Below are positions 12,723 through 16,101 of a stretch of 64,000 nucleotides of DNA, piece after piece. The stretch comes from Rhodospirillaceae bacterium (GTDB lineage: Bacteria; Pseudomonadota; Alphaproteobacteria; Rhodospirillales; Rhodospirillaceae): contig CANJSF010000002.1 in the NCBI GenBank assembly GCA_947476925.1, positions 186,001 to 250,000 of the forward strand. The letters run 5' to 3'. Positions within the stretch are counted from its first letter, which is position 1; the number at the start of each line of letters is the position of its first letter. The notes below the pieces were generated by a model, which made no database searches, was not told the origin of the DNA, and saw only the letters and a list, made by a program, of their open reading frames with translations. The position numbers and the translations under genes were made by a program.

Positions 12723-13211
12723 ATGTTCCGATTTTATCTTGCGATTCTTCTTGCCGGGCTGTCTTTGCCAGCCGTGGCTGAAACTCAAGTCGAGCGCGGC
12801 AAGTACTTGGCCGAGATTATGACCTGCAACGAGTGCCACACGCCTGGCGCGCTGCTGGGCAAGCCCGATAAAAATAATCCGCTGGCGGGCAGCGAGGTGG
12901 GCTACGAAATTCCCATGTTGGGAATTTTCTATGGCGCCAATCTTACACCCGACACCGAGACGGGGATTGGCTCCTGGACGGCCGATCAAATTGTGACCGC
13001 CATCAGAACAGGCGTGCGCCCTGATGGCCGCGTTCTGTCAGCTGCGATGCCGTGGCGTTCATTTGCGGCGTTGACCGACAAAGATGCCAAGGCCATTGCC
13101 GCCTATTTGAAAAGCCTCAAACCGATGTCGCGCAAAGTTCCCGGCCCCTTCGGCCCCAGCGAAAAAGCCACGTCGTTTTACTATGGCTTTGTCATGCCAC
13201 CCAAAAAGTAA
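12723..13211 (+). CDS. Periplasmic c-type cytochrome
   Basis: A 162-residue monohaem cytochrome c. After a signal peptide (to about A19) the haem motif CNECH is at residues 35-39. VLSAAMPWRSFAALTD supplies the likely distal methionine, and the last helix follows (AIAAYLKSLKP). This layout resembles the cytochrome domains of multihaem dehydrogenase subunits. The partner redox enzyme is not in the window. A strong AGGAG ribosome binding site precedes the ATG. It lies between the PagL-like gene and an MBL-fold gene. Confidence 0.9.
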   Translation: MFRFYLAILLAGLSLPAVAETQVERGKYLAEIMTCNECHTPGALLGKPDKNNPLAGSEVGYEIPMLGIFYGANLTPDTETGIGSWTADQIVTAIRTGVRPDGRVLSAAMPWRSFAALTDKDAKAIAAYLKSLKPMSRKVPGPFGPSEKATSFYYGFVMPPKK

Positions 13212-14103: not shown

Positions 14104-14128
14104 GCCCCCCAAGGCAACCAGGACTGCA

Positions 14129-15685
14129 ATGAAAATCGCCGACTTCAACCCTGCTGGCCGCCTCGAAGAAGGCCTCGCACATCACCAACAGGGACGCTTG
14201 GACGAAGCGGAAGCTTGCTATCTCGATGTCGTTGACGACGACCCCAAAAATACCGAAGCGCTGAAGCTGCTGGCCCTCCTGACGATGGGCCGCGGCGAGT
14301 TTGAAGATGCGCTGCAATATGCGCAGGCTGCCGCGAACTTGGCTCCCGATAATGGCGACTATTTGCATCTTTTGGGTCGCATTCTGATCGATTTAGGCGA
14401 CCTCGATGGCGCGATTGAAAAGTTACAGCGCGCGGCGACAATGGCGCCTTCCGATCCGCTCGATCTCAATCTTGATTTGGCGGAATGCTATGCCATGCAA
14501 GATCGCTGGGACGATTCATTAAGTATCTCACAAGCGCAGTTGCAGGCCTATCCGACAGATCTCCGTGCGCTGAGCGCGGCCGCTACAGCCGCAGCGAGCC
14601 TCGAGAAAAATGCAGAGGCGCTCGATTTTTTCGAACGCGCTATTGCGGTCGACAACACGGCCTCACATCTCTGGTCGGGTGCGGCCAAGCTGCATCGTAG
14701 TGCCGGTGATATCGCGCGCGCGTGGTTTTGTGTCGAGCGCGCGTTGTCCCTCTCGCCTGACGATGCCGACCTTCACTATATGGCGCGCATTATTCGCGGC
14801 GAGGCCGTGCCGGCGTGGCACTTCAATATGATGAACGATACCACGCGCAATGCTGCTTTCAAAAAAGCCATCGAGCGTCAAATTAAGCCGCATCATGTTG
14901 TGCTTGAAATCGGCACGGGGGCAGGCTTGTTGGCAATGATGGCCGCGCGCACTGGCGCGCGCATTTATACCTGCGAATCCAACCCCGTGCTCGCGCTCGC
15001 GGCGCGGGGAATCATCGAAGCGAATGGCTTGGCCGACCGAATCACGGTTATTGATAAACCGTCATGGAGCATCGAAGTGGGCACGGATGTGCCGCAGCAA
15101 GCCGATGTGCTGATTTCTGAAATTTTCTCAGCCCAGTTGTTGTCGGAAGAAGTTATCCCGACCATCGAAGACGCCAAGCGCCGATTGCTCAAGCCCGGCG
15201 GTATCGTGATTCCGGCGATGGCCGCCATGATGGGCGCGCTGGTTCGCAACGATGACCTGGCGCAGCTCACGCGCGTGTCGACGGTTGAAGGGTTTGATTT
15301 TACACCGTTCAATGCCTTCACGCCGGTCTTGATGAGTTTGGACACACCGAACCACGCGTTCGAATGGATGTCTGAGCCGTTATCGCTGTTTGAGTTCGAC
15401 TTTAAAAATCGCGATATGTTTTTAGCCGAGTCTGGGCTGGTGGCCGTCGACGTGACCGCAGACGGTCTGTGTCAAGGTGTCGTGCAGTGGATGCACGTTC
15501 TGCTCGACGACGAAACGGCCTACGAGAATGCGCCCGCAGGCGCCAACGCCACACGCACAAAGCACTGGACGCCGTTGTTTTATCCCTTTGCCATTCCGCG
15601 TGAACTTAAAAAGGGTCAAACCGTCATGTTGCGCATTGGCCATGACCGCAAGGGCGTTCGCGTCGAATTGTCCGAGGTGTTGTAA
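14129..15685 (+). CDS. TPR-domain protein arginine methyltransferase, PRMT7/9-like
   Basis: A 518-residue protein with TPR repeats over about residues 10-220, then a class I SAM methyltransferase with PRMT features. Motif I is VLEIGTGAGLLAMMAARTGA (about 258-277). The double-E loop is SEIFSAQLLSEE (first glutamate E331). KHWTPLFYP (H479) in the C-terminal barrel resembles the THW loop. The order and wording of these motifs are closest to eukaryotic PRMT7, and the N-terminal TPRs recall PRMT9. A protein-arginine methyltransferase role is inferred; substrates are unknown. The ATG at 14129 is preferred because earlier in-frame starts lie inside the MBL gene. It overlaps the following gene as TAATG. 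Confidence 0.85.
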   Translation: MKIADFNPAGRLEEGLAHHQQGRLDEAEACYLDVVDDDPKNTEALKLLALLTMGRGEFEDALQYAQAAANLAPDNGDYLHLLGRILIDLGDLDGAIEKLQRAATMAPSDPLDLNLDLAECYAMQDRWDDSLSISQAQLQAYPTDLRALSAAATAAASLEKNAEALDFFERAIAVDNTASHLWSGAAKLHRSAGDIARAWFCVERALSLSPDDADLHYMARIIRGEAVPAWHFNMMNDTTRNAAFKKAIERQIKPHHVVLEIGTGAGLLAMMAARTGARIYTCESNPVLALAARGIIEANGLADRITVIDKPSWSIEVGTDVPQQADVLISEIFSAQLLSEEVIPTIEDAKRRLLKPGGIVIPAMAAMMGALVRNDDLAQLTRVSTVEGFDFTPFNAFTPVLMSLDTPNHAFEWMSEPLSLFEFDFKNRDMFLAESGLVAVDVTADGLCQGVVQWMHVLLDDETAYENAPAGANATRTKHWTPLFYPFAIPRELKKGQTVMLRIGHDRKGVRVELSEVL

Positions 15686-16101
15686 TGGCCAATGCCCCCA
15701 TTACCGGGCATGGCTTTTTATGGCGGTGGATTTTGGCGTTGGTCGTAGTGCTGGGGACATTCAATCCCACCGACTACTCTTATTTTAATTGGGTCATGCA
15801 GGTTGAAGGCCAACTGCCGCTCAAGGCCCTGGTGGGCATTGTGCTGCTGATTGTCATTGTCATTTATCTGCGCGCCACGTGGTTTTCGATTGGTCCCTTG
15901 GGGCTCATTTTGGCGGGCGCATTTTTTTCCGCTTTGATTTGGGTGCTGGTCGACTTTGGTGTGCTGGCTTTGGGGCAGGGCAGCATTCTCACCTGGATCG
16001 TTTTGGTTATCCTATCGTTGATTCTCGCAATTGGGATGTCGTTCTCGCTTTTCCGCCGCCGTATCTCGGGCCAAGTGGATGTCGACGACGTGGAAAATTA
16101 A
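15685..16101 (+). CDS. DUF6524-type integral membrane protein
   Basis: A 138-residue protein with four predicted membrane helices and a short acidic C-terminal tail (QVDVDDVEN). GTFNPTDYSYFNW between helices 1 and 2 is typical of the DUF6524 family, which has no known function. Its start overlaps the stop of the TPR-methyltransferase gene (TAATG), so the two are probably co-translated. No catalytic motif is seen. Confidence 0.82.
   Translation: MANAPITGHGFLWRWILALVVVLGTFNPTDYSYFNWVMQVEGQLPLKALVGIVLLIVIVIYLRATWFSIGPLGLILAGAFFSALIWVLVDFGVLALGQGSILTWIVLVILSLILAIGMSFSLFRRRISGQVDVDDVEN

Follow-up and report, generated by a model that had tools for sequence, protein, structure and literature searches.

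A predicted PRMT7/9-clade arginine methyltransferase bearing an N-terminal TPR array in a Rhodospirillaceae bacterium

To our knowledge, protein arginine methyltransferases (PRMTs) have been described mostly as eukaryotic enzymes. Among them, PRMT9 has an N-terminal part that we take to be a TPR array. The residue at the THW position of these enzymes is linked to the type of methylarginine produced. In a review, predicted PRMTs are mentioned for Legionella pneumophila, with their function listed as unknown, together with an arginine methyltransferase of M. tuberculosis, Rv1988 (PMC10117894); bacterial PRMT-like proteins are therefore not new as such. Another review describes SznE/StzE, of streptozotocin biosynthesis, as an arginine-guanidino methyltransferase working alongside SznF (PMC11705231). 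None of the matches listed in a search of titles and abstracts had a bacterial TPR-PRMT as its subject, a weak negative, the subscription literature lying mostly outside the search.

The gene described here lies in a window of 64,000 nucleotides, the whole stretch of DNA that was analysed. It is an intact open reading frame for 518 aa on the + strand at 14129-15685 (ATG at 14129, TAA at 15683-15685), and AGGA is found at 14120-14123, upstream of the ATG. All features of the protein given below are encoded on the same strand. Residues from about 8 to 226 (14150-14806) form a TPR helical array, which is matched by Pfam models (TPR_2, 6e-20; TPR_14, 4e-18) and appears as regular helices in the predicted structure. 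Residues 227-518 (14807-15682) form a single PRMT module with a SAM-binding part and a C-terminal beta-rich part, as delimited by phmmer, profile and fold matches. The fusion of an N-terminal TPR array to a methyltransferase, claimed in the original prediction, is thus present. The product is predicted, with a probability of roughly 0.68, to be a PRMT7/9-clade enzyme that uses SAM to methylate arginine, its one catalytic module being preceded by an N-terminal TPR superhelix. The claim of a PRMT7/9-like module joined to TPR in a bacterium is borne out by profile, fold, residue and tree comparisons, as follows.

The comparison with PRMT7 and PRMT9 that had been proposed was made with a profile (A1) of 12 bacterial sequences, the window protein included, searched against the PDB. 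The best matches are PRMT7 (1.4e-82) and PRMT9 (2.2e-80), followed by PRMT3 and PRMT1, and all of the best 60 of 93 matches are arginine methyltransferases. The single-domain scores are 190.9 bits for bovine PRMT9, 188.9 for T. brucei PRMT7 and 179.3 for mouse PRMT7; the whole-sequence scores of PRMT3 and PRMT1 are 140.9 and 124.8. The window protein as a single phmmer query against solved structures gives 3.1e-30 for PRMT7, 1.1e-28 for bovine PRMT9 and 7e-28 for human PRMT9. The Pfam model PRMT_C (PF22528) scores 18.6 bits on the window protein, below its gathering score of 27, and is over the cut-off in six of the nine TPR-type relatives scanned.

Structure prediction, likewise proposed, gave an AlphaFold2 model (12 sequences) with a mean pLDDT of 90.9 and a pTM of 0.75. 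Over residues 227-518 of the predicted model, fold matches identify a Rossmann SAM fold and a C-terminal beta-barrel. Foldseek ranks bovine PRMT9 (8rbk) first, at 1.1e-23, and T. brucei PRMT7 next. With VIA-align 2, the Z values are 31.3 for T. brucei PRMT7 (307 residues, 3.8 A), 29.9 for human PRMT9 (286 residues, 2.9 A), 29.4 for mouse PRMT7 (296 residues, 2.6 A) and 28.9 for bovine PRMT9, in which model residues 109-518 are aligned with chain residues 25-472 (395 residues, rmsd 4.6 A). The last alignment starts at model residue 109 and therefore reaches into the TPR part. PRMT3 (28.9) and PRMT1 (28.6) are close to these values, so the fold alone cannot separate PRMT7/9; it is the sequence and the tree that do so. 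Two narrower assignments were rejected. A PRMT9 orthologue fits the N-terminal TPR but not the absence of a tandem second PRMT module (one module, 518 aa), and in a comparison with mouse-type PRMT7 proper the mouse chain gives two module matches and the window protein one.

Another identity is suggested by database labels, according to which the protein would be an L11 methyltransferase (PrmA). PF06325 (PrmA) is indeed over its cut-off (33.9 bits) and is the best Pfam match of the catalytic part, and four of ten related plasmid genes (H1, H2, H6, H8) are labelled '50S ribosomal protein L11 methyltransferase'. The labels differ because Pfam's best catalytic match is PrmA. That match, however, spans only profile positions 153-257 of 296, which is the SAM-binding core; the PrmA equivalog model TIGR00406 gives 23.9 against a cut-off of 183.15; a fuller PrmA match (165.3 bits, profile 46-294) is found elsewhere in the genome; and the PRMT matches are far stronger. 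PrmA identity was therefore rejected, and we regard it as extremely improbable. Judging from these matches, the L11 label on the four plasmid genes is apparently an annotation error that stems from the match to the PrmA core. A best match to an ordinary small-molecule methyltransferase family had been named as evidence against the original prediction; by Pfam the best match of the catalytic part is PrmA, but it is confined to the SAM core.

The residues of the module agree with the preferred reading of a PRMT7/9-type enzyme. The three hallmarks that had been named can all be located. Motif I, of the form D/E-I-G-T-G-x-G-L-L and a SAM-binding element, is present in the sequence as LEIGTGAGLL at residues 259-268 (14903-14932). 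The double-E loop SEIFSAQLLSEE, placed by alignment at residues 330-341 (15116-15151), contains E331 and, nine residues on, E340, which align with E144 and E153 of mouse PRMT7 (chain numbering of the alignment); neither glutamate varies among the 12 rows of A1 or among the 12 of a further alignment, A2. Whether both glutamates face the SAM pocket, the second condition set in the original prediction, was examined by alignment and overall fold match, from which E331 and E340 are predicted to occupy the PRMT double-E site. The THW-like loop is KHW at residues 478-480 (15560-15568; H479), aligned with DHW of mouse PRMT7 and TCW of PRMT9 module 1; the THW position has His in the window protein, mouse PRMT7 and human PRMT6, and Cys in PRMT9. 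A fourth element, which was not among the hallmarks first named, is the N-terminal PRMT motif WHFNMMNDTTRN at residues 230-241 (14816-14851), which is close to PRMT9 and aligns with its segment WHFIMLNDTKRN. The W, H, M, R and N of this motif are invariant in the 12 bacterial rows of A1.

With these parts a reaction path may be proposed. The TPR groove would recruit a partner or substrate protein, and the Rossmann part would bind SAM through LEIGTGAGLL. E331 and E340 would hold the guanidinium of the substrate arginine in a pocket closed by H479 and the N-terminal motif, and the methyl group would pass to a terminal guanidino nitrogen. The position of the TPR superhelix before the PRMT module suggests that the substrate is a protein. 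The predicted product is suggested by the His at the THW position, which would favour mono- or asymmetric dimethylarginine over symmetric dimethylarginine.

Both double-E glutamates are retained in 44 of the 51 bacterial rows of the clade described below, and the THW His in 41. The second glutamate is missing in seven rows (six Pro, one Gln) and the THW His in ten, where changes to Cys or Gly occur. The loss of the second glutamate in some members would be expected if the protein were a catalytically dead PRMT serving as a TPR scaffold. Such a role is very unlikely for the window protein, because its motifs are intact, as are those of L010-L013, and because selection is tighter on the catalytic half than on the TPR half in each of the three pairs compared. 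In comparisons with L025, L026 and L027, dN/dS is 0.095, 0.214 and 0.145 for the module and 0.217, 0.268 and 0.212 for the TPR part (dS 1.2-2.0, near saturation). The gene is under purifying selection, and the module is more constrained than the TPR part in all three pairs.

Two sets of natural variants were noted. In a TPR-PRMT subclade (L038, L041, L044, L045, L046, L048 and L052) proline takes the place of the second double-E glutamate, and a second match of some kind is found in four of the seven genomes (G095, G110, G234, G330). L056, L072 and L095 are TPR-less alphaproteobacterial members with CW at the THW position, like PRMT9.

A tree with eukaryotic and bacterial sequences, as had been suggested, was built from 72 rows and 295 columns under LG+C20 and rooted by choice on the type I PRMTs. 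Its eukaryotic sampling is thin (eight rows, partial), does not include PRMT5, and has mouse PRMT7 on a long branch. Left out of the counts and trees are copies of the window itself and loci with TPR only (L001-L009, L033), near copies and fragments (L014, L020, L023, L025-L029, L031, L034, L048, L056-L058, L064-L066, L075), degenerate or odd loci (L086, L088, L089, L101), the PrmA locus L022, and loci without a match. The window protein groups with PRMT7/9 in a clade of 55 rows (support 96/94), of which 51 are bacterial and four are PRMT7/9, T. brucei PRMT7 included. Neither the type I PRMTs nor the remaining bacterial PRMT-like proteins fall within this clade. Its bacterial members are of TPR type, taken in the tree to mean a long N-terminal part, in 38 of the 51 rows, and the sets around the window protein are TPR-bearing. 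The closest rows are from its own genus, with 77% identity at best. L030, from a member of the Polyangiaceae (Myxococcota), falls within the window's small group, an indication of horizontal transfer.

The tree also bears on the relation between the eukaryotic and bacterial rows. A topology that keeps all eight eukaryotic rows together is rejected (p-AU 0.014) by a test picked with the tree already in view. The four eukaryotic PRMT7/9 rows as one clade (p 0.613) and the 51 bacterial rows as one clade (p 0.413) are not rejected. Therefore, PRMT7/9 may be nested either inside or beside the bacterial rows, both being compatible with this sequence-based tree.

The clade also includes a branch without TPR (L098, L079, L102 and L087; support 99/97), and three of its four loci have an HDO or HDO-cupin neighbour like SznF together with a common ATP-grasp gene. 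The SznF-like layout is assigned by Pfam at two of the three loci (with one cupin over no cut-off) and by similarity at the third; at the fourth TPR-less locus (L124, the region of L079) no HDO match was found. Since these three TPR-less members adjoin SznF-like genes, they are probably free-arginine methyltransferases, by analogy with SznE/StzE. The window protein may then be asked to be the same, that is, a free-arginine or small-molecule guanidino methyltransferase like SznE in which the TPR would serve localisation or oligomerisation only. We consider this unlikely: by tblastn an HDO neighbour occurs in only three of 46 regions (L098, L102 and L125) and not near the window, the window gene stands among TCA-cycle genes, and Pfam TPR models match nine of nine TPR-type relatives scanned (with no match in the tenth protein, which is short and TPR-less).

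Some of these loci are of interest in their own right. At L098:4265-6915, L102:5917-8274 and L125:5344-7629, HDO-type (SznF-like) and ATP-grasp genes lie beside TPR-less genes of the PRMT7/9 clade; two of the three are on plasmids (Pantoea, Methylobacterium), and they are candidate clusters for arginine-derived natural products. On the Streptomyces plasmid pFRL4 (L100:3796-7753), a PRMT-like gene outside the PRMT7/9 clade is near an arginine deiminase/DDAH-like gene, an arrangement that suggests free methylarginine chemistry. L126:2410-8898 encodes an NRPS of 2163 aa (condensation, AMP-binding, thioesterase) with an embedded methyltransferase domain, which is a generic methyltransferase by Pfam and weakly matches the PRMT profile (84 bits).

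Strong relatives of the predicted PRMT7/9-clade enzyme (E < 1e-69) are found in 31 of 289 alphaproteobacterial genomes, and matches at 1e-10 in 39 of 289. The phylum sample has matches at 1e-10 in 33 of 398 genomes, a figure that takes in weaker relatives without TPR as well as some genomes that belong to the class sample. Among 72,556 plasmid records, ten contain a match. In the set of relatives, 14 of 61 genomes have a match at 1e-5; in one of these, G046, the matching gene (L022) is classed by Pfam as a full PrmA (182.2 bits), which leaves 13 with a PRMT-like gene, and in another, G021, it (L021) is outside the PRMT7/9 clade. The named loci closest to the window are from Rhodospirillaceae-like MAGs, two of them Baikal isolates. 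As the gene is patchy among the relatives, it is not essential in the group. An 883-aa protein encoded on an Eleftheria terrae plasmid (L101:5435-8086) combines TPR with what look like two PRMT-like modules, of which the first is degenerate; genes for acyltransferase and phosphopantetheinyl transferase lie nearby. This domain order may be a bacterial counterpart to that of PRMT9.

Upstream of the gene are those for an MBL-fold protein, a cytochrome-c-like protein, a PagL-like protein and two succinyl-CoA ligase subunits. Downstream are DUF6524 and, past it, an isochorismatase-domain protein and the E1 and E2 subunits of 2-oxoglutarate dehydrogenase. The cytochrome-c-like frame (12723-13211) overlaps the start of the MBL gene, and no match to it is listed in eight related loci.

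The gene was originally described as translationally coupled to DUF6524, a possible partner. In the window the two do overlap by one base (TAATG, 15683-15687), but DUF6524 is rejected as a conserved partner, because the overlap is not kept and the genes occur apart. In L025, L027 and L028 the PRMT gene is at the equivalent place, and DUF6524 starts about 35-90 bp downstream; DUF6524 was not found at the L026 site, nor in the genome concerned (G001, an 88% complete MAG). The proposed survey of co-occurrence among the 61 genomes finds a PRMT-like gene in 13, DUF6524 in 12 (one below cut-off) and both in only six; DUF6524 is without PRMT in six (one a weak match), and a PRMT-like gene is without DUF6524 in seven. 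G005, a related family member without a PRMT match, has MBL, 130 bp, DUF6524 and then sucA (L092), so the PRMT gene has been gained or lost there as a unit. In an all-against-all comparison of ORFs from 46 regions (40 from the window, related loci and further genomes, and six from plasmids, TPR-bearing and TPR-less mixed), the PRMT frame is found in 46 of 46 and no convincing partner gene emerges. The largest neighbour clusters are SDR (six regions), isochorismatase (four, two of them of the window lineage) and a third without a named family (four).

A coherent bacterial clade of PRMT7/9 type makes two questions testable, namely whether bacteria carry out dedicated protein-arginine methylation and what the source of PRMT7 and PRMT9 is. 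On a wider and more tentative reading, to which we give well below even odds, this widespread and mobile bacterial TPR-PRMT clade does perform dedicated protein-arginine methylation and shares descent with PRMT7/9 apart from type I, so that the TPR-PRMT design may be bacterial in origin. The single-module TPR forms are small and tractable models for PRMT9, and the natural changes within the clade (Pro in place of the second Glu; Cys or Gly in place of the THW His) form a ready panel for the study of product specificity.

Compared with known systems, the window protein has in common with PrmA the SAM-binding core and the label on some relatives, while the N-terminal half of the PrmA model is unmatched. 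The Legionella pneumophila PRMTs are likewise predicted bacterial PRMTs, the likeness being drawn from the review's description (PMC10117894). SznE/StzE, as described in the other review (PMC11705231), has similar guanidino-group chemistry, and three candidates for such a role, recognised by an SznF-like neighbour, are in the window's clade; these candidates are without TPR, have cluster-like surroundings, and are likened to SznE through their neighbour genes, not its sequence. PRMT7 is the best profile match. The double-E loop of mouse PRMT7 (ITELFDTELIGEG) is similar, with DHW in place of KHW, and the T. brucei PRMT7 chain 4m36 (343 aa) has a single module, as in the window protein. Unlike PRMT7, the window protein has TPR before its module, and mouse PRMT7 has two module matches. 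With human and bovine PRMT9 the window protein shares a PRMT module behind N-terminal helices, the WHFxMLNDTKRN motif and the double-E, whereas PRMT9 has a second module match and Cys at the THW position, and the window protein one module and His.
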